NCBI RefSeq assembly: GCF_012913485.1
Contig: NZ_CP051774.1
Coordinates: 992,001 to 1,056,000 of the forward strand
Origin: Luteolibacter luteus
GTDB lineage: Bacteria > Verrucomicrobiota > Verrucomicrobiia > Verrucomicrobiales > Akkermansiaceae
Direction of reading: 5' to 3'
Length of the DNA stretch: 64,000 bases
Below the pieces are notes generated by a model. It worked only from the letters and a program-made list of their open reading frames with translations, was not told where the DNA came from and did no database searches. The first letter of the stretch is position 1. Every line of letters begins with the position of its first letter. A program made the position numbers and the translations under genes. Below, one piece after another: positions 13,280-39,324 of this stretch.

Positions 13280-13635
13280 TGGTGGAGGCGAGGGGAGTCG
13301 AACCCCTGTCCGAAACATCTTTCATGCGGGCTTCTACACGTTTATCCGCCGGTCTAAAGCTTCGGAAGTCGTAGGCCCGACGGCCGCGTTCTCCTTCCTA
13401 GAAACCTGTGGATCTCGCCAAAGTGTCCGGTTACCCGACGCCAAGGCCAGCACGCTAAGTGTTCACCATCCCCCACCGCGTGCGCATGAGTTCAGGTGTT
13501 GCTGTCAATTAAGCAGCAAGGGCAAGCTCGTTAGAGTCTGCATTTATTTGTTTTGAGCGGCTTTTTAGGAGGCCAGCCGATCAACCTCCACGTGCAGCCA
13601 GCACTGCGAACATCCCGTCGAAACCAGAACGCCCC
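13280..13635 (-). ncRNA. ssrA: tmRNA (ssrA), one-piece
   Basis: On the minus strand the 5' end GGGGGCGTTCTGGTTTCGAC and the 3' end TCGACTCCCCTCGCCTCCACCA region form the expected acceptor stem (GGGGGCG with CGCCTCC) and T arm, with CCA encoded. The gene is 356 nt long. The tag reading frame at 13541-13509 encodes ADSNELALAA followed by TAA, a typical LAA-ending degradation tag. tmRNA rescues stalled ribosomes together with SmpB and marks the product for proteolysis. It is a one-piece type; no permutation is seen. Confidence 0.97.
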
Positions 13636-13724
13636 CTTTGCTGACGGGCGAACCATGACGCCGGACGGCTCCGCGAGCAATTGGAATTTCCAAGCCGCTT
13701 TTGGAACGCCACGCTTACCACGGA

Positions 13725-32236: not shown

Positions 32237-33253
32237 TCACCTGCGGACCACCTCCACGACTTTCCTCCCGCGTTCTTCTTCCCTGATGTCGAATTTCACA
32301 TCGAGGAACTTCTCGATCACGGAAACGTTCGTTGGCACATGCTGGTCGAGCGACATCGTCGCAAATCTCCCCTCGCCTGCCAATGCCATCGGCAAGAGCA
32401 ACTGGTCGGCAAGATGGCGACCTATTGGCACACCGGCACCGAGGTAGTTGTTCATCGACTTCGCCGCATGGTGGCCGATTTGCTCCGCAGTCCTGCCTTT
32501 TTCCCCGAAGGTGCTGGTCATCTCCCGCGCCTCGCCAAAATCGCTTTCGACCAAACAACAGATGCCCATGCCCGCTCCGGGCTCACGGCTCTCTACGGCG
32601 GCGTCCTTGCAAGGAAGCACTTCAAGCGCCGCATCCAGCATGCGTCCGGCAATCGCCAAGGGAAGATGCCGGTAGAGCACGCGGATGCGGCTCTTCCCCT
32701 CTTCCGCACGTGTCATGAGCTCGAAGGGAAGAAGCTTTTCACAAGGATGCACCGTCGCGTGGAAGACACCACCACCGGCCGGCGCGAAACCTGCGCTCTC
32801 CAGTGAGACTTCGGCGCGCGGCCCAAGCTTCGCCAGCGAGTGTAGGAAAACGCGCTCGATGAAATCGAAGGGCGGGGCGAGCGGATTGTGCGTGCCGCCC
32901 TCCAGACGCAAGGTGGACGGCTGGTCCGCCGTCCACAGGGCTGGCAGCAAGGTCTGAAAAAGCAAGGTGGTGCTACCCGCCGTCCCAATGGCGAATTCAT
33001 ACGATCCGCCTCGTATTTTCCCTGCACGGAAGACCAGCTCGGTGGAGCCGATCTCGGCGCCATCCGCCGTGCCGCCGGAGATCTCGCAGGCGGCCTTCAC
33101 GCAAGTGAGATGCTGCCGCATCAAGCCGGGCCGCGAGCGTTTGCCACGGATATTCGTCATGCGGAATGGCTGTCCCGTGACCATGGCCAGGGAGAGCGCC
33201 GTACGCAGCATCTGGCCGCCGCCGGAGATGCCATCGAGTTGAATCGGTTTCAT
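32237..33253 (-). CDS. rtcA: RNA 3'-terminal phosphate cyclase RtcA
   Basis: The 338-residue protein starts with IQLDGISGGGQMLRTALSLAM, the family N-terminal signature, and has the catalytic histidine in SLDQHVPTNVSVIE (about His305), which becomes adenylylated in characterised RtcA enzymes. RtcA converts 3'-phosphate (and 2'-phosphate) RNA ends to 2',3'-cyclic phosphates. It follows rtcB on the minus strand with a 47-base gap containing a hairpin, and so belongs to the RtcR-controlled RNA-repair operon. Confidence 0.95.
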   Translation of the reverse strand: MKPIQLDGISGGGQMLRTALSLAMVTGQPFRMTNIRGKRSRPGLMRQHLTCVKAACEISGGTADGAEIGSTELVFRAGKIRGGSYEFAIGTAGSTTLLFQTLLPALWTADQPSTLRLEGGTHNPLAPPFDFIERVFLHSLAKLGPRAEVSLESAGFAPAGGGVFHATVHPCEKLLPFELMTRAEEGKSRIRVLYRHLPLAIAGRMLDAALEVLPCKDAAVESREPGAGMGICCLVESDFGEAREMTSTFGEKGRTAEQIGHHAAKSMNNYLGAGVPIGRHLADQLLLPMALAGEGRFATMSLDQHVPTNVSVIEKFLDVKFDIREEERGRKVVEVVRR

Positions 33254-33300: not shown

Positions 33301-34785
33301 TCAATCGTCGGCAGCCGCCTCGTCTTTGATCACGAAGCGAGCCTGGAGTTTCGCCACCGTTTCGGCGAGACGGGCGCTTTCCACGCTACGCAGGACTTCA
33401 GGGAAGTTCTTGTAGGCCTCCGGCGCTTCGTCGATCGGGTAGTTGCGGCAGTTGGTCATGATGTCGGAGACATCGAATTCGGCATTCACGGTCTTCTGGT
33501 CAAGGGTCCGCGCCGCGTGCTTACGTCCCATCTGGCGGCCCGCACCATGATTCACGGACCACGCGGTGCGCTCGGCACCGGCACGTGCCACCATCACCAC
33601 CGAGCCATCGCGCGGATTCCCCGGCAGTAGAATCGGGTGACCGGTCTTCTCAAAGGGAGTGTCCTTCAGCGAGAAATGTCCGCCAGGGATCGCACGGGTT
33701 GCTCCCTTCCGGTGCACCCACGACTTCTGGCCGTCGACGATTTCTTCCCGCGCGATGTTGTGCGAGATGAAATAGACCAGCCGTCCCTTCGCTCCCGGAA
33801 GGACTTCCTGAAAGGCCTCCAGCACGAGGGCATTGATGAGCAGGTGGTTCACGGTCGCGAAGTTCGCGCCAAGCGCCATGTCATCCAGATAGGCATCCGC
33901 CTCCGGAGTTCCTAGTGGCGCGTAAACGAGCTGCTTGTCACCGGCTGGAAAAGGCGTGGACCAAGCGCGGAACTTGTTCTCCAGGTCTCTGAACTGACCT
34001 TGCGCGAGCAGGTTCCCAAAGCCACGGGATCCACAGTGGCTGAGGAAGGACACATGGCCGTCCCGCAGCCCGAAAGTCTCCGCGGTTTCGCGGGCCCACG
34101 GACGGTCGGTCACCTGCGTGATCTCACACTCGCCGAAATGGTTTCCCCCACCATAGGAGCCAAGCTGGGTCATCTTTTCTGCGAAATTCCGGATACGCCC
34201 GGCATCGAGAATGAAGTCCAAGCGGCTACGAAGGGCATCGTAGGTTCCATCATGGCCGACATGCGTGGAGTCCTCACATCGCTGTGCCCACTCGAACGGA
34301 ATCCCGAGAGCCTCGCAAACCTCACGGCTGGCCCCCTGCGTCACGGCACTTGCGCCGAGTTCCCGGTCAACCAAACGCGCTTTCTTCGCGGAGCGCTGCC
34401 CGCGGCCAGCACCAGTCGGGGTTCGCTCGACGATCGCATTGATCAGCGCACGCCGGGTCGCCTTGTCACGAATCGCATCCTCGGGAATATCGAGCTGAAG
34501 CAGGCTCATGGAGCACTTGATGTCCACCCCCACCGGCCCCGGATAGATGTGCGTAGGCGAAACCATCACGCATCCTACCGGCGCACCATAGCCCGCATGA
34601 GCATCCGGATTCAGGATCACATCCGTCACCCCCGGCGCCATTCGCGAATTGATCGCCTGCTGGATACAGGTCTCGTCGAAGTTGTCCCGGATCGCATCGG
34701 TTCCGATCACCGTGATCGGCTTGCCCTTGTTTTCGGGAAGAGGGAGGAAGCCGATGGCTTCGTCGGTCTTGTGGATGGAGTTCAT
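33301..34785 (-). CDS. rtcB: RNA-splicing ligase RtcB
   Basis: The 494-residue protein is an RtcB ligase: the manganese-binding Asp88 and Cys91 lie in GVDIKCSMS, further metal or GMP ligands in GGGNHFGE and FLSHCGSRGFG, and the guanylylated histidine in NHGAGRQMGR near the C-terminus. RtcB seals RNA with 2',3'-cyclic phosphate or 3'-phosphate to 5'-OH ends in a GTP-dependent reaction. It is transcribed after rsr and seven Y RNA genes, and before rtcA. Its length is that of the longer 'RtcB3-like' group rather than the 408 residues of E. coli. Confidence 0.95.
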   Translation of the reverse strand: MNSIHKTDEAIGFLPLPENKGKPITVIGTDAIRDNFDETCIQQAINSRMAPGVTDVILNPDAHAGYGAPVGCVMVSPTHIYPGPVGVDIKCSMSLLQLDIPEDAIRDKATRRALINAIVERTPTGAGRGQRSAKKARLVDRELGASAVTQGASREVCEALGIPFEWAQRCEDSTHVGHDGTYDALRSRLDFILDAGRIRNFAEKMTQLGSYGGGNHFGECEITQVTDRPWARETAETFGLRDGHVSFLSHCGSRGFGNLLAQGQFRDLENKFRAWSTPFPAGDKQLVYAPLGTPEADAYLDDMALGANFATVNHLLINALVLEAFQEVLPGAKGRLVYFISHNIAREEIVDGQKSWVHRKGATRAIPGGHFSLKDTPFEKTGHPILLPGNPRDGSVVMVARAGAERTAWSVNHGAGRQMGRKHAARTLDQKTVNAEFDVSDIMTNCRNYPIDEAPEAYKNFPEVLRSVESARLAETVAKLQARFVIKDEAAADD

Positions 34786-34943
34786 GAGTCAAGAGAGAGT
34801 GGATGAACGGAAAGAAGCCAAAAATGGCAAAGAATAGAATGGTCGCGACGGCCAAAAGAAGAACGGAAAGCCGTGAAGTGTCCGATTTTCGGCATGCACA
34901 CAGCACATCCAAGGTTCAATCGGAGCATTCATCGGAAAGAAAA

Positions 34944-35069
34944 GGCGACAAGGATTTGGCGAAACTTCCTGCTCTACCGCTGAGCTACCGGGCCGTCGAA
35001 GGTGGCCCGGGACGGACTCGAACCGTCGACCTGGTCATTATCAATGATGTAGTTCCGCCGGCATTCGCC
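34944..35069 (-). ncRNA. Y RNA unit 7 (YrlA-type, tRNA-like domain)
   Basis: A 126-nt RNA. The outer helix is GGCGA/TCGCC, the internal loop ATGCC opposite CCTTG, the inner helix GGCGGAACT/AGTTTCGCC (9 pairs). The permuted tRNA-like domain has a T arm (GACGG-TTCGAGT-CCGTC), a 7-pair acceptor-like stem (CCGGGCC/GGCCCGG) closed by ACCTTCGAC, then a D arm (GCTCAGCGGTAGAGC). The half preceding the T arm retains GATAATGACCAGGTC, like the 3' side of an anticodon arm. It is the unit nearest rtcB and is followed by CTTTTCTTT. Confidence 0.85.
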
Positions 35070-35083
35070 GGGACGAGAGGAGA

Positions 35084-35218
35084 AATCGTGACAAGGATTC
35101 CGAAGACATGAAGCGCGTCTACCTATTCCGCCACGGGCCTTGCGGCCCGGCGGGACTCGAACCCGCACGGCTTTCGCCGCTCACTGATGAGGTGTATTCT
35201 TCGGTGGCATTCACGATT
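35084..35218 (-). ncRNA. Y RNA unit 6 (YrlA-type, tRNA-Leu-like)
   Basis: A 135-nt RNA with outer helix AATCGTGA/TCACGATT, internal loop ATGCC opposite CCTTG and inner helix CCGAAGA/TCTTCGG. Its tRNA-like domain imitates a class II tRNA: a variable-arm hairpin GGC-GAAA-GCC, T arm GCGGG-TTCGAGT-CCCGC, acceptor-like stem CGGGCC-GCAA-GGCCCG with a GNRA loop, and the D region GTGGCGGAATAGGTAGACGCG, which is close to bacterial tRNA-Leu. The order (variable, T, acceptor, D) is circularly permuted relative to a tRNA. Confidence 0.88.
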
Positions 35219-35224
35219 GGGGAA

Positions 35225-35351
35225 ACGGCGACAAGGAGTTGTGAAACGTATGGTTCCTGCTCTACCAACTGAGCTACCCGCTTGCGCGGAGGCGGACTCG
35301 AACCGCCGACCAGGTCCTTAACAGGGATGTAGTTCCACGGGCATTCGCCGT
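35225..35351 (-). ncRNA. Y RNA unit 5 (YrlA-type, tRNA-like domain)
   Basis: A 127-nt RNA with outer helix ACGGCGA/TCGCCGT (7 pairs), internal loop ATGCC opposite CCTTG and inner helix GTGGAAC/GTTTCAC. The tRNA-like domain has T arm GGCGG-TTCGAGT-CCGCC, acceptor-like stem CCGC-GCAA-GCGG and D arm GCTCAGTTGGTAGAGC. CTGTTAAGGACC ahead of the T arm looks like the 3' half of an anticodon arm with a GTT anticodon (Asn-like), though this is only a resemblance. Confidence 0.87.
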
Positions 35352-35371
35352 CAAAGGGGCAGAATTTGAAT

Positions 35372-35480
35372 CGCGACAAGATTGGAAAGATCCTTGGTAA
35401 CTGCTCTACCAGACTGAGCTACCCGCCGCAACGGGATCGGATTTGAACCGATGACAGGTGTAATCTTTCGGGCATTCGCG
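35372..35480 (-). ncRNA. Y RNA unit 4 (YrlA-type, compact tRNA-like domain)
   Basis: A 109-nt RNA with outer helix CGCGA/TCGCG, internal loop ATGCC opposite TCTTG (one change from the other units) and inner helix GAAAGAT/ATCTTTC. The tRNA-like domain has T arm ATCGG-TTCAAAT-CCGAT, a short acceptor-like stem CCCG/CGGG with a 6-base loop and D arm GCTCAGTCTGGTAGAGC. It is the shortest of the five tRNA-mimic units. Confidence 0.85.
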
Positions 35481-35490
35481 GAGATGAACC

Positions 35491-35617
35491 ATGCCGACAA
35501 GGAATTGGCAGGACGATACTCACCGGCGAGCTACCACTGCTCCAATCCGCTCGCGCGGATACGGGACTCGAACCCGCGGCCTCCGGTGTCCAATGTAGTC
35601 CTGCCGGCATTCGGCAT
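35491..35617 (-). ncRNA. Y RNA unit 3 (YrlA-type, initiator-tRNA-like D arm)
   Basis: A 127-nt RNA with outer helix ATGCCGA/TCGGCAT, internal loop ATGCC opposite CCTTG and inner helix GGCAGGAC/GTCCTGCC (8 pairs). A further helix CACCGG/CCGGTG corresponds to an anticodon stem. The T arm is GCGGG-TTCGAGT-CCCGT, the acceptor-like stem ATCCGC-GCGA-GCGGAT has a GNRA cap, and the D arm GGAGCAGTGGTAGCTCG resembles that of initiator tRNA rather than the usual GCTCAG..GAGC form. Confidence 0.87.
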
Positions 35618-35687
35618 CAGAACAAGGGTGCGTCGGGGCTTCCCGGCATCACGAAGATTGTTAGATTAGAATTGAGAAGAGTGAGAA

Positions 35688-35777
35688 TTGCACGTGCGGC
35701 GGCAAGGGTGTGGCGAGACGTTTACGGTTCTTCTTATGAGTAAGATGTAGTCCCGCCGGGCATCCGTCGCACGGCAA
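35688..35777 (-). ncRNA. Y RNA unit 2 (short, without tRNA-like domain)
   Basis: A 90-nt RNA. The outer helix CGTGCG-A-CGG pairs with CCG-C-CGCACG (one A-C mismatch) and extends with TTGC/GCAA across one bulge. The internal loop is ATGCC opposite CCTTG, the inner helix GGCGGGAC/GTCTCGCC, then TACATC. The terminal loop of about 30 nt has no T or D arm. A 70-base spacer separates it from unit 3. Confidence 0.8.
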
Positions 35778-35799
35778 AGCTGGGGAAAGTCGGGAAGAT

Positions 35800-35889
35800 T
35801 GCCGGCACGGTGGCGAGGAATGCTGAGAGATGGCTTACGCCAATCGGTGTTGGAACGATGTATTCCCAGCGGCATCCACCGTGCCGGCA
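35800..35889 (-). ncRNA. Y RNA unit 1 (short, next to rsr)
   Basis: A 90-nt RNA starting 7 bases after the rsr stop. The outer helix is a perfect 14-pair stem (TGCCGGCACGGTGG/CCACCGTGCCGGCA). The internal loop is ATGCC opposite CCTCG, the inner helix GCTGGGA/TCTCAGC, then TACATC. The distal part forms a small hairpin TGGC-GTAA-GCCA with a GNRA loop in place of a tRNA-like domain. Confidence 0.85.
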
Positions 35890-35896
35890 AAGTGTT

Positions 35897-37468
35897 TCAC
35901 GCGATCTTCACGCGCGGGGTGAGGGATTGCTTTTCGATTTCACGGACCCAGTGATCGCTTCCATCCGCACCGGCCGCGAAGGCCGAGATGAGATCGAAGA
36001 CGGAGTCGCTGAATCCACCTATGTTCAGAATATCCCGGCGGTCCGGAGCCTGCGTCGTGGTGTTCGGCACCAGGTCGATGCAGACCAGCTTGGCCTTCGG
36101 GTTCCGCTGCTTGAGCTTCTCCCACTCGGCCATGACTGCGGTTCCGCGGCCCTGGCGTGGATCGGCCCACGATTCGTTGTCGGAGACGAAGATCACCAGA
36201 TCAGGCTTGGCCTTCTCCTGGTTGAGCTTTGCCAGCGGCGCGGAACAGTTGGTTCCCCCGCCGAACAAGCCAGCCAGCTTGGTCGCGTTGGTCATGACCG
36301 AATCCCGCGGGTTCAGGGAGACATCCTTTACTTGGAATTCGAATGGCAGGACCCGGGCAGAGCGGTTCTTCCGGAGGAAGGCCGCGGCCACCAGGGCTGC
36401 CACGTCGACGCAGCGCACCTTTGAAGAGGCTCCCGGCCGGTAGCCGGTGACGGACGTGCCCATCGATCCCGAGACATCCGGACAGACGACGACCTCGCCA
36501 TCGATCTGCGGGACATTCTCGACTGAAGCCTCCATCGCGTCCTGAAGCGCTTCCCGCAGCTTGAGCGGCAGCTCATGCGATGCGTTAAGGAAGGCAACAA
36601 GGAGTTGATAGGGGAAAACCCGGGAGCGACGGATCCGGTCCGGATCGGCAAGCCGTGCGGCGAGCAAGTCCACCATCGTCTCGTCACGGAACACGCCGTG
36701 GCGTTGGAAGGTGTTCAGGTTCATCCTCGTGGTCTGCCAGGAAGCCGTCACCGCGATGGCCGCCCATTCCTTTTCGCCCAGCTCCAGCGCGGTCAGCATC
36801 TGGAACGGGACTTCCGGAATAGAGCCCTCACGGGAAAGCTTCCATGCTTCGTAGTGGCGCAGCGCCTCCGGAAGCACCTCGGCATCCCAAGGCTTTCCGA
36901 TCAGCCATGCGTAGAAGGCTTCACGCTCCTTGGAAACCGGGCGCGGGTGGACCATCTTCACGACGTCGGCAAGCGACGGAGCATTGCCCACCGAGGCATC
37001 CAGAAGCTGGCGATCGCTGGCGCGCTCCAACCACTGGCGGATAAGCCGCTTCGGCGCGGAACCCAGGGACTTGCGGCCCGTGATCCCGGAACGAAGGACC
37101 TGCACGAAGTTCCGCAGCATCTTCCCGTTGTCGATGACCTGCGGGAAGATCTCGGCAAGCCGGTCGAGGTCGCGGGTGGCAAGCACCGCACAAAGCAAGG
37201 CCGGCATGTCCTTCATGAAGCCCTTGCGCCGGGCGTAGAGGGCGGTCTGTGCGATGAAGTCCGCATCCACCTTCGGCAATAGGGCCAGCACTCGATCAAG
37301 CTGGAGCTCCGGCGAAGCGTAGAAGGTCCGGCCGAAGCAACCCGTGACCGCGATGCGTGCCAGCGTGGCCTTCGGGGAAAGCTCGTAGGCGACTCCACCC
37401 GCGTCGTTGACCGTGGTGGTCTGCGGGACAAAGGCGCCGCGTATCGTCTGGAAGAGGTTCTTGTTCAT
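35897..37468 (-). CDS. rsr: Ro60 orthologue Rsr (TROVE domain and vWA domain)
   Basis: The 523-residue protein has an N-terminal TROVE alpha-helical ring domain (ELSPKATLARIAVTGCFGRTFY, then ALYARRKGFMKDMPALLCAVLA) and a C-terminal von Willebrand A domain with the MIDAS motif DVSGSMG and later SDNESWAD. Ro60 proteins bind the ends of misfolded RNAs in the ring cavity and Y RNAs on the outside; in bacteria Rsr works with the nuclease PNPase in RNA decay. The ATG at 37468 is chosen because the conserved NLFQTIRG follows directly. The gene is first in the rsr-Y RNA-rtcB-rtcA operon. Confidence 0.95.
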   Translation of the reverse strand: MNKNLFQTIRGAFVPQTTTVNDAGGVAYELSPKATLARIAVTGCFGRTFYASPELQLDRVLALLPKVDADFIAQTALYARRKGFMKDMPALLCAVLATRDLDRLAEIFPQVIDNGKMLRNFVQVLRSGITGRKSLGSAPKRLIRQWLERASDRQLLDASVGNAPSLADVVKMVHPRPVSKEREAFYAWLIGKPWDAEVLPEALRHYEAWKLSREGSIPEVPFQMLTALELGEKEWAAIAVTASWQTTRMNLNTFQRHGVFRDETMVDLLAARLADPDRIRRSRVFPYQLLVAFLNASHELPLKLREALQDAMEASVENVPQIDGEVVVCPDVSGSMGTSVTGYRPGASSKVRCVDVAALVAAAFLRKNRSARVLPFEFQVKDVSLNPRDSVMTNATKLAGLFGGGTNCSAPLAKLNQEKAKPDLVIFVSDNESWADPRQGRGTAVMAEWEKLKQRNPKAKLVCIDLVPNTTTQAPDRRDILNIGGFSDSVFDLISAFAAGADGSDHWVREIEKQSLTPRVKIA

Positions 37469-37565: not shown

Positions 37566-37581
37566 TGCACCCACCGTGCCA
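37566..37581 (-). promoter_or_regulatory. Sigma-54 promoter of the rsr-rtcBA operon
   Basis: On the minus strand TGGCACGGTGGGTGCA matches the -24/-12 consensus, with GG and GC separated by the required 10 bases. It lies 97 bases ahead of the rsr ATG and points toward it, in the gap shared with the divergent sigma-54 activator gene rtcR. A probable activator site with inverted repeats (TTTCT-AACG-AGAAA at 37640-37653, overlapping GAAATTTC) lies upstream at an enhancer-like distance. Confidence 0.85.
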
Positions 37582-37719
37582 AACCCCATTTTAAGCCCTC
37601 GCAAGTTGAACCCAACCTATTGATTTCCAGGTGAATAATTTTCTAACGAGAAATTTCGAAGCCGTCTCAAGCCATTTCGATCTTCCATCTATATTATCAT
37701 TATTGCTAGGATCTTATCC

Positions 37720-39324
37720 GTGACGCGAGTGCTCATCGGGATCTTGGGAGTAAAGTTGGATGGCAGCACCATGCCGGAGCGCTGGGACCGCTGGAGACCG
37801 ACGGTCTCGCTCTTCCAGCACGAGGAGCTGCTCTTCGACCGGCTCGAACTGCTGACCGAACGGCAGTTCCATGTGCTCCGCGACCAAGTCGCCAAGGACA
37901 TCCGGATGGTTTCCCCTGAGACGGAGGTGAGGACCCACGAGCTAAACTTCGGGAAGGATCCTTGGGATCTGGAACGGGTCTATGGTGCGCTGCACGATTG
38001 GGCCCGCGCTTATCCCTTCGACCTTGAGCGGGAGGAATACTACATCCACATCACGACCGGCACCCACATCGCACAGATCTCACTCTTCCTGCTGGTGGAG
38101 GCCGGCTTCCTGCCCGGGAAGCTGGTGCAGACTTCACCGGAGGATACCTTCAAGCGCGATCGGAACCGCGCGGGGCGCTATGCTTTCATCGACCTCGACC
38201 TCTCGAAGTACGATGCACTTAGTACTCGCTTCGCCCAGGATCAGGAAACGACCACGGATTTCCTCAAGAGCGGGATCGCCACACGTAATGCCGGCTTCAA
38301 CAGGCTGATTGACCGCATCGAGCAAGTGGCCCTGCGCTCCCAGGCTCCAATCCTTTTGACGGGCCCTACAGGCGCAGGGAAATCTCACCTCGCCCGCAGG
38401 ATCTTCGAGCTTCGGAAACATCGCGGCCTGCGCGGCAGCTTCGTGGAGGTGAACTGCGCGACACTCACGGGCGACACTGCCGCTTCGGCCCTCTTCGGTC
38501 ACGTGCGCGGCTCCTTCACCGGAGCGCAGAAGGATCGGCCCGGCCTCTTGCGGGAAGCGGACGGCGGACTCCTCTTCCTCGATGAAATCGGCGAGCTTGG
38601 CCTGGACGAGCAGGCCATGCTGTTGCGTGCCCTCGAGGACAAGACCTTCCTGCCTGTGGGAGCAGATCGGCCCGTAAGCAGCGATTTCCAACTCATCGCG
38701 GGGACGAATTGCGACTTGCGGGAAGCCGTGGTCAAAGGACATTTCCGCGAGGATCTCTTGGCGCGCATTCACCTGTGGACCTTCGGCCTGCCCGCCCTGT
38801 CGCAGCGGCGCGAGGACATCGCGCCGAACCTCGACTTCGAACTGGAACGAGTGAGCGGCACCCAAGGCCGCCAAGCCGGCATGAACAAGGAGGCGCGACA
38901 AACTTTCCTCAAATTCGCCGAGGCGCCCGACACCCCCTGGCTCGGGAACTTCCGCGATCTCAACGCGGCGGTCACGCGCATGGCCACGCTTGCACCGCGC
39001 GGGCGGATCCGGGTAGAGGAAGTGGAAGAAGAAATCACGCGGCTCCAGGAGAGCTGGCAGCGTCCAGGCTCCAAGACCAAGGACGGCGGGATCGATCTCT
39101 CAGAGATGCTCGGCGAGGAAGCTTGCGCGGAGATCGACCCCTTCGATCAGGTCCAACTCTGCCATGTCATCCTGGTGTGCCGCAGCGCGAAGAGCATCTC
39201 GGATGCGGGCCGCTCGCTCTTCTGCGCCTCCCGGCTCAAGCGATCCATCGCCAACGACGCGGATCGACTGAAGAAGTATCTGGCCAAGTTTAACTTGGAC
39301 TTCGCCAAGTGTCAGGAGAAGTGA
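37720..39324 (+). CDS. rtcR: RtcR, sigma-54-dependent activator with CARF-like sensor
   Basis: The 534-residue protein has an RtcR-type N-terminal CARF-like domain (residues 1-180, with HITTGTHIAQISLFLLVE), a AAA+ domain with Walker A GPTGAGKS and the sigma-54 contact loop GSFTGA, then LFLDEIGELGLDEQAML, and a C-terminal DNA-binding region. RtcR activates rtcBA when RNA damage products with cyclic phosphate ends bind the CARF domain. The start is a GTG. It diverges from rsr, whose promoter is of sigma-54 type. Confidence 0.95.
   Translation: MTRVLIGILGVKLDGSTMPERWDRWRPTVSLFQHEELLFDRLELLTERQFHVLRDQVAKDIRMVSPETEVRTHELNFGKDPWDLERVYGALHDWARAYPFDLEREEYYIHITTGTHIAQISLFLLVEAGFLPGKLVQTSPEDTFKRDRNRAGRYAFIDLDLSKYDALSTRFAQDQETTTDFLKSGIATRNAGFNRLIDRIEQVALRSQAPILLTGPTGAGKSHLARRIFELRKHRGLRGSFVEVNCATLTGDTAASALFGHVRGSFTGAQKDRPGLLREADGGLLFLDEIGELGLDEQAMLLRALEDKTFLPVGADRPVSSDFQLIAGTNCDLREAVVKGHFREDLLARIHLWTFGLPALSQRREDIAPNLDFELERVSGTQGRQAGMNKEARQTFLKFAEAPDTPWLGNFRDLNAAVTRMATLAPRGRIRVEEVEEEITRLQESWQRPGSKTKDGGIDLSEMLGEEACAEIDPFDQVQLCHVILVCRSAKSISDAGRSLFCASRLKRSIANDADRLKKYLAKFNLDFAKCQEK

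Follow-up and report, generated by a model that had tools for sequence, protein, structure and literature searches.

Y RNAs, the mimicry of tRNA by Y RNAs and the RNA-repair operon are already known, and circularly permuted tRNA genes exist in archaea and algae. We know of no settled answer to the purpose of the tRNA-like head of bacterial Y RNAs. For Salmonella, one study describes an operon ordered rsr-yrlB-yrlA-rtcB-rtcA, with a divergent rtcR and a sigma54 promoter, and reports that Rsr and YrlA bind PNPase (PMC9879122). Rsr, Y RNA and PNPase of Deinococcus radiodurans make up RYPER, in which the Y RNA is the tether, according to two papers (PMC4726728, PMC8394870); the second also names 6CU1 as the structure of Salmonella YrlA and reports that YrlA is modified by DusA and TruB (PMC8394870). 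Here we analyse an operon of this type in a 64-kb stretch of the Luteolibacter luteus genome (the window), which is part of a single 6.41-Mb contig.

The RNA-repair operon and its Y RNA units

On the minus strand stand rsr, the Y RNA array, rtcB and rtcA, in that order, with rtcR divergent, the genes being identified by Pfam and NCBIfam (Table 1); with rtcB and rtcA downstream of rsr, this is the layout of an RtcR-controlled RNA-repair operon. As listed, the rsr reading frame extends to a TTG at 37615. Many homologue alignments start at residues 46-51, some earlier, and we put the start at the ATG at 37468 because it is there that many of them begin. A predicted sigma54 promoter stands ahead of the operon. 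Between rtcR and the first part of rsr, the best site of this type agrees with at least 10 of the 12 consensus positions in 46 of 59 loci (a set that includes a few contigs twice, as repeat loci were kept); the same limit is reached in 4 of the 59 on the reverse strand and in none of them after each was base-shuffled once.

Seven consecutive minus-strand units lie at 34944-35890, between rsr and rtcB, and the outer and inner helices that an initial annotation had listed for them are present in the sequence. Its placing of Y RNAs within an rsr-rtcB-rtcA operon is likewise borne out, by the Pfam and NCBIfam assignments, the Rsr match of the rsr product and the Rfam YrlA family. U1 and U2 have the Y stem and a short head free of tRNA-like parts, and therefore we do not call them YrlA; by architecture (Y stem, no tRNA module, first in the array) they fit a YrlB-like Y RNA. 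U2, in which 8 of 9 outer-stem pairs and 8 of 8 inner-helix pairs are seen by eye, was missed by our strict detector because of the mismatch in its outer stem. Folding-energy z-scores extend from the value for U1 (Table 1) to -0.76 for U4 and are weak for some units.

Table 1. Features of the operon and of its Y RNA array, with positions in the window
Feature	Position	Strand	Basis
rtcR, sigma54 activator of RNA-repair operon, divergent	37720..39324	+	NCBIfam NF038308, 758.5 bits (cut-off 650); Pfam RtcR and Sigma54_activat
Sigma54-type -24/-12 site TGGCACGGTGGGTGCA, upstream of rsr	37566..37581	-	11 of 12 consensus positions
rsr (Ro60 orthologue)	35897..37468	-	Pfam vWA_Ro60 9e-18, TROVE 3e-6; best solved-chain match Rsr, PDB 2nvo, E 2.2e-26
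U1, predicted Y RNA unit without tRNA-like module (YrlB-like), 15-bp outer stem	35799..35890	-	Fold z -5.42
U2, predicted Y RNA unit without tRNA-like module, one A.C mismatch in outer stem	35694..35772	-	Sequence; fold z -2.49
U3, YrlA-type unit, initiator-type D-arm	35491..35617	-	Rfam YrlA 54.0 bits, E 4.1e-11
U3 D-arm TGGAGCAGTGGTAGCTCG with A11:U24, initiator form	35527..35544	-	1 of 48 host tRNAs with purine at position 11
U4, YrlA-type unit, elongator-type module	35372..35480	-	Rfam YrlA 65.0 bits, E 2.6e-14
U5, YrlA-type unit, elongator-type module	35224..35352	-	Rfam YrlA 65.6 bits, E 1.8e-14
U6, YrlA-type unit, leucine-tRNA-like module	35084..35218	-	Rfam YrlA 48.9 bits, E 1.2e-9
U6 hairpin GGCGAAAGCC, at position of class II long variable arm	35169..35178	-	Sequence
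U6 D-arm TGGCGGAATAGGTAGACGCG, leucine form	35114..35133	-	Score 18 for Leu, next kind 10
U7, YrlA-type unit, elongator-type module; loop closing acceptor helix begins ACC	34944..35069	-	Rfam YrlA 65.2 bits, E 2.3e-14; covariation in 30 sequences
Possible degenerate eighth unit just ahead of rtcB: GAATGC, perfect 7-bp inner helix TCCGATT/AATCGGA, outer stem of 3 pairs	34871..34934	-	By eye; missed by detector
rtcB RNA ligase	33301..34785	-	Pfam RtcB 3.4e-99
rtcA RNA 3'-phosphate cyclase	32237..33253	-	Pfam RTC 2.3e-75; NCBIfam above cut-off

The initial annotation had proposed a comparison with the Rfam Y RNA families. This brings out YrlA (RF02553) in five of the seven units, each matched over the whole model (E 1.2e-9 to 1.8e-14), with every score, from 48.9 to 65.6 bits, under the curated cut-off of 69; units at the rsr loci of four relatives (G003, G041, G050 and G127) score above it. 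The parts that define YrlA are found here as follows: a module of T-arm, acceptor helix and D-arm is present in U3-U7 and absent from U1 and U2, the outer stem, internal loop and inner stem are supported by covariation, and a Ro60/Rsr gene adjoins (Pfam; PDB match). ARAGORN calls no tRNA in the array. A general Rfam search at gathering scores returns tmRNA alone in the window (a gene at 13280-13636 with the tag ADSNELALAA), and YrlA surfaces only at an E-value threshold. Across 288 genomes of the phylum RF02553 has a match in 71, above the cut-off in 4, and it also matches, below the cut-off, in 6 of 14 control genomes including E. coli and B. subtilis. We had considered taking its genome-wide matches as a count of Y RNA genes and dropped this, since the matches in the controls, and overlapping matches outside rsr loci that resemble tRNA clusters, speak against it; counts are therefore limited to rsr loci.

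The initial annotation had staked its reading on covariation among homologous loci, and this proved strong in both of the sequence sets that we aligned, each hand-picked by type. In the 30 sequences of the U7-type set 97.5% of cells pair (shuffled mean 85.3) and 17 of 33 pairs have changed on both sides; none of 500 shuffles reaches four of our five measures and one of 500 reaches the fifth. Sliding the alignment by one column lowers pairing to 41.5-46.8%, a control that is somewhat favourable because the structure was drawn from the window's unit. The initiator-type set (16 sequences) has 88.2% of cells paired and 26 of 34 pairs changed on both sides, with 0 of 500 shuffles reaching any of the five measures. 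Relatedness of the sequences can inflate the shuffle control, and one row of these alignments, from locus L079, may belong to the U4 type. In both sets the outer and inner Y helices covary. We had also compared acceptor pairing within units (0.906, 143 units) with pairing between neighbouring units (0.543, 81 pairs; random 0.525). Parsing demands pairing, which biases this comparison, and it was set aside in favour of covariation.

tRNA-like modules of several kinds

Read 5' to 3', U3-U7 consist of a T-arm, an acceptor helix with a closing loop and a D-arm, which is a permuted tRNA order. Each predicted module thus has the form of a tRNA opened at the anticodon loop, with its former ends joined and the Y stem in the anticodon's place. 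The anticodon loop is absent from all five, so no tRNA can be made from them and they are not permuted tRNA genes. For comparison with tRNAs we began from 256 units, of which 76 have no T-arm and 21 of the remaining 180 could not be parsed; a score limit left 143 modules, a few of them with doubtful D-arms, and these were compared with the 48 tRNA genes of the window's own genome (the host). Of the 143 closing loops, 22 are GNRA tetraloops and 17 begin ACC; within the U7 set 14 of 30 begin ACC, five of these ACCA. This start may be a remnant of the tRNA 3' end, which is a guess. The elbow contacts, TTCRA in the T-loop and GG in the D-loop, are both present in 139 of the 143 modules, a figure raised by a detector and parser that favour these very motifs.

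By their D-arms, the five modules of this one array appear to be of three kinds: initiator, leucine and ordinary elongator. At a margin of 2, 109 of the 143 parsed D-arms cannot be assigned to one tRNA kind, being of the common elongator form or otherwise ambiguous, and many modules may therefore be interchangeable. With so many ambiguous, assigning an amino acid to each elongator-type module was abandoned; ten modules typed as Pro are distrusted because they rest on one D-loop form. The U7 module is nearest to Phe if the acceptor stem is counted and to Thr if it is left out, and none of the four D-stem pairs, which have the elongator form, varies among the 30 U7-type units. Another origin that we considered, in which T-arm and D-arm are read from two adjacent tRNAs, is opposed by the acceptor helix, which covaries within each unit as two unrelated tRNAs would not.

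U3 carries a flipped D-stem, GAGC/GCTC, and among the 48 host tRNA genes the initiator alone has a purine at position 11. The best match of its D-half is host fMet, and that of its T-half is Asp. Ranked by D-half, host fMet comes first for 12 of 15 initiator-type modules against 0 of 128 others; the T-halves of the initiator-type modules show no initiator signal, host fMet ranking anywhere from 1 to 36 of 48. With both halves together it is first in 8 of the 15, sixth for U3 and first in 2 of the 128 others. In the initiator-type units of L081 and L138 the best D-arm score belongs to Gln. Across the 16 aligned initiator-type units, from several genera and including a misparsed one from L079 that is absent from the trees below, three of four D-stem pairs (10-25, 11-24 and 12-23) are invariant, and each of the six acceptor pairs has changed on both sides in at least one unit.

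The five host Leu tRNAs take the first five places for the D-half of U6, with scores of 45 to 37.5 (the next tRNA has 25.5), and for its T-half two Leu tRNAs lead at 40 while a third ties with His and Asp at 39. A hairpin at the place of the variable arm is likewise found in L079 and L082. Both elbow motifs are kept in the Leu-type units of three of nine genomes and both are lost in six (L080, L084, L085, L086, L087 and L090), where AACCAA or ATCCAA forms replace the T-loop TTCGAGT and the D-loop has lost its GG, so that a true tRNA shape is not needed there. This joint loss is concordant, and possibly reflects just one or two events. Of other kinds, Arg-like D-arms occur in L088, L091, L115 and L133, a Gln-like one in L120 and, by pattern only, a Ser-like one in L117.

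Trees of modules and host tRNAs suggest that different modules are linked to different tRNAs, either by descent or by exchange of sequence, most firmly for the Leu modules; their limits are the small number of columns (65-66), the inclusion of paired columns and, in one case, the removal of rows after a result. In a tree of 37 modules from ten hand-picked loci with the 48 host tRNAs (66 columns), the five host Leu tRNAs are joined by three intact Leu modules (98/92), host fMet by nine initiator modules (94/90) and a pair of Arg tRNAs by unit 1 of L115 (100/99), and the test rejects a single clade of all modules (p 0.0078). A quick tree of all 143 modules recovers the Leu group (97); here the initiator clade is absent from the best tree and is not rejected (p 0.49), nor is a single clade of all modules (p 0.121). 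After this result we dropped eight long-branched modules and the host Tyr tRNA and applied a more careful method to the remaining 135 modules: the Leu group stands at 99/97, the initiator clade is slightly better than the free tree (p 0.51), and the single all-module clade is rejected (p 0.011).

Arrays in related genomes

Counting the window's own genome, 58 of 192 genomes have an rsr match, which in some is distant (E 1e-8 to 1e-26); of the 17 other genomes of the same genus, 12 have one. We looked for units in 82 loci, namely the window, 37 named records and 44 loci from whole genomes, and six of these are repeats; ten loci with a distant rsr (best segments 27-28% identical, L123-L132) were excluded from the unit counts. 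The counts come from the 52 non-repeat loci with a downstream rtcB more than 60% identical, leaving aside the 24 of 76 without such an rtcB. In their rsr-rtcB gaps the detector finds 221 units, six of them in the window; ten dinucleotide shuffles gave 1, 0, 0, 0, 2, 1, 1, 0, 0 and 0, and the reverse strand none. Over the whole window it reports those six alone, all on the minus strand within the array, and none on the plus strand. It therefore undercounts, the window truly having seven. By this count arrays hold nine units at two loci, eight at one, seven at one, six at four, five at ten, four at 18, three at ten and two at six. The initial annotation had regarded a seven-member array as exceptional; it is large, yet with 2 to 9 units in relatives it is not out of the ordinary.

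Number and order of units differ among relatives. A module-less unit first and YrlA-type units after it is the arrangement in the window and in many of them. Four-unit arrays also occur beyond the phylum, in Rhabdaerophilum (L151), Rhizobiales (L153), Beijerinckiaceae (L166) and a Proteobacteria record (L154). In Acanthopleuribacter pedis (L158) four units have a common T-arm stem, CCGAG/CTCGG, two of them with very long acceptor loops, as if a single Y RNA had been duplicated locally. Some units form a third class, in which the T-arm and a capped acceptor hairpin are present and the D-arm is missing (counting from 0, unit 4 of L082 and of L086, unit 2 of L104 and of L111, and others).

Genes inserted in the arrays were scanned in 14 long-gap loci. 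On the opposite strand there is a DUF5615/PIN-like gene in L080 and a PIN gene in L096. A protein with a CPCC or CPVC-type motif lies between rsr and rtcB in L079, L082, L085, L087 (twice), L090 and L091; the L079 copy, the only one analysed, matches Cys_rich_CPCC and DUF6714. Six loci (L079, L080, L084, L085, L087 and L091) encode a small protein, hydrophobic at one end, which adjoins rtcB in four of them; its L079 copy, again the only one analysed, has no Pfam match.

Possible functions and comparison with known systems

The reading that we prefer starts from what is established at the level of sequence: the operon, its seven units with covarying helices, and modules whose acceptor ends are sealed by a loop and in which the Y stem replaces the anticodon loop. 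We propose, with a probability of roughly 0.4, that the Y RNAs are likely held by Rsr through the outer stem, and that their permuted, anticodon-less tRNA bodies each dock a different enzyme that discriminates tRNA kinds. RtcR would sense broken tRNA and fire the sigma54 promoter, and the units would be cut out of the transcript. Rsr would bind near the AUGCC / CUUG internal loop of the outer stem, and the tRNA bodies, which could neither be charged nor be cut at the anticodon, would bring exonucleases, modifying enzymes or other binders of the tRNA body to Rsr. Damaged tRNAs would then be sorted between decay and repair by RtcA and RtcB. A kind-blind partner needs one body, so the several kinds suggest discriminating partners. 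We know of no discrimination of tRNA kinds by the recorded partners, namely PNPase and the modifying enzymes. The suggestion of the initial annotation that the units are different tethers fits modules that differ in kind; the partner that it gave to each we retain as conjecture.

The main rival, which we consider unlikely, takes the modules as decoys: tRNA doubles, with no anticodon loop to cleave, that would keep anticodon nucleases or other tRNA-cutting toxins engaged, one for each targeted kind. Since a decoy must match its target in kind, several kinds per array are what it would lead one to expect. Hughes et al. suggest that YrlA, uncut by the Salmonella nuclease, may be a competitive inhibitor, and the tRNAs that they find cut in Salmonella include fMet, Leu(UAG) and Phe (PMC7790460). 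This overlap in kinds is weak and proves nothing, because the tRNAs probed were a chosen set. The PIN-domain genes that two of the 14 scanned long-gap loci, L080 and L096, have inside their arrays also point this way, the PIN domain being a fold of tRNA-cutting toxins. However, many anticodon nucleases read the anticodon stem-loop, the very part that is absent from the modules, and we know of no demonstrated effect of Y RNAs on tRNA cleavage.

A somewhat less probable view is that copy number has grown and no specialisation has followed: tandem duplication would have multiplied the Y RNAs, tRNA sequence would have repaired or replaced some of them, and all would serve one purpose, for example as a PNPase tether to Rsr, with kind irrelevant. 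The 109 of 143 D-arms that have the common elongator form or are otherwise unassignable, and the varying number and order of units, are in keeping with this. It sits poorly with the initiator D-stem, three of whose four pairs are unchanged in every one of the 16 units, which come from several genera and whose remaining helices have turned over, and with outer-stem sequences that seem, by eye, tied to module kind across genomes. That the array is made of broken tRNA genes or of functionless structured spacer is very improbable. The below-cut-off YrlA matches in 6 of the 14 control genomes, where pairs of tRNAs probably imitate the family, would suit it; against it stand the covarying outer and inner Y helices, the 221 units set beside at most two per shuffle, and the lack of any ARAGORN tRNA call at the array.

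Put at its widest, and as a tentative claim that may well fail, our proposal would be that RNA-repair operons of Verrucomicrobia carry as many as nine Y RNAs held by Rsr, and that the heads of these were acquired independently from various tRNAs, including the initiator and leucine tRNAs: a kit of doubles that do not have the part cut by toxins and are matched to the tRNAs needing protection or repair. Among the titles and abstract openings listed from the literature searched, which did not extend to the main 2014 survey of bacterial Y RNAs, we found no report of arrays of up to nine Y RNAs with heads of different tRNA kinds. Heads of different kinds side by side on the same predicted type of Rsr-binding stem would amount to a natural experiment, in which heads can be exchanged and partners compared within one organism. 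Partners that differ by kind would make Y RNAs adaptors for the sorting of damaged tRNAs; heads that shield tRNAs would be an RNA-based protection against tRNA-cutting toxins.

Among known systems, the YrlA family (RF02553) shares with these units an outer stem and internal loop followed by T-arm, acceptor-like hairpin and D-arm, and it too adjoins rsr; the array differs in having five modules of three kinds by D-arm, the leucine one with a variable-arm hairpin, and in scoring below the family cut-off. In permuted tRNA genes, too, the 3' half of the body precedes the 5' half, but the array modules have the Y stem in place of an anticodon loop. As in RYPER, an Rsr orthologue goes with Y RNAs, whereas here the predicted modules are several and different. 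The operon of Salmonella is alike in gene order, divergent activator, sigma54-type site and the succession of module-less and then YrlA-type units; it has two units where this operon has seven.
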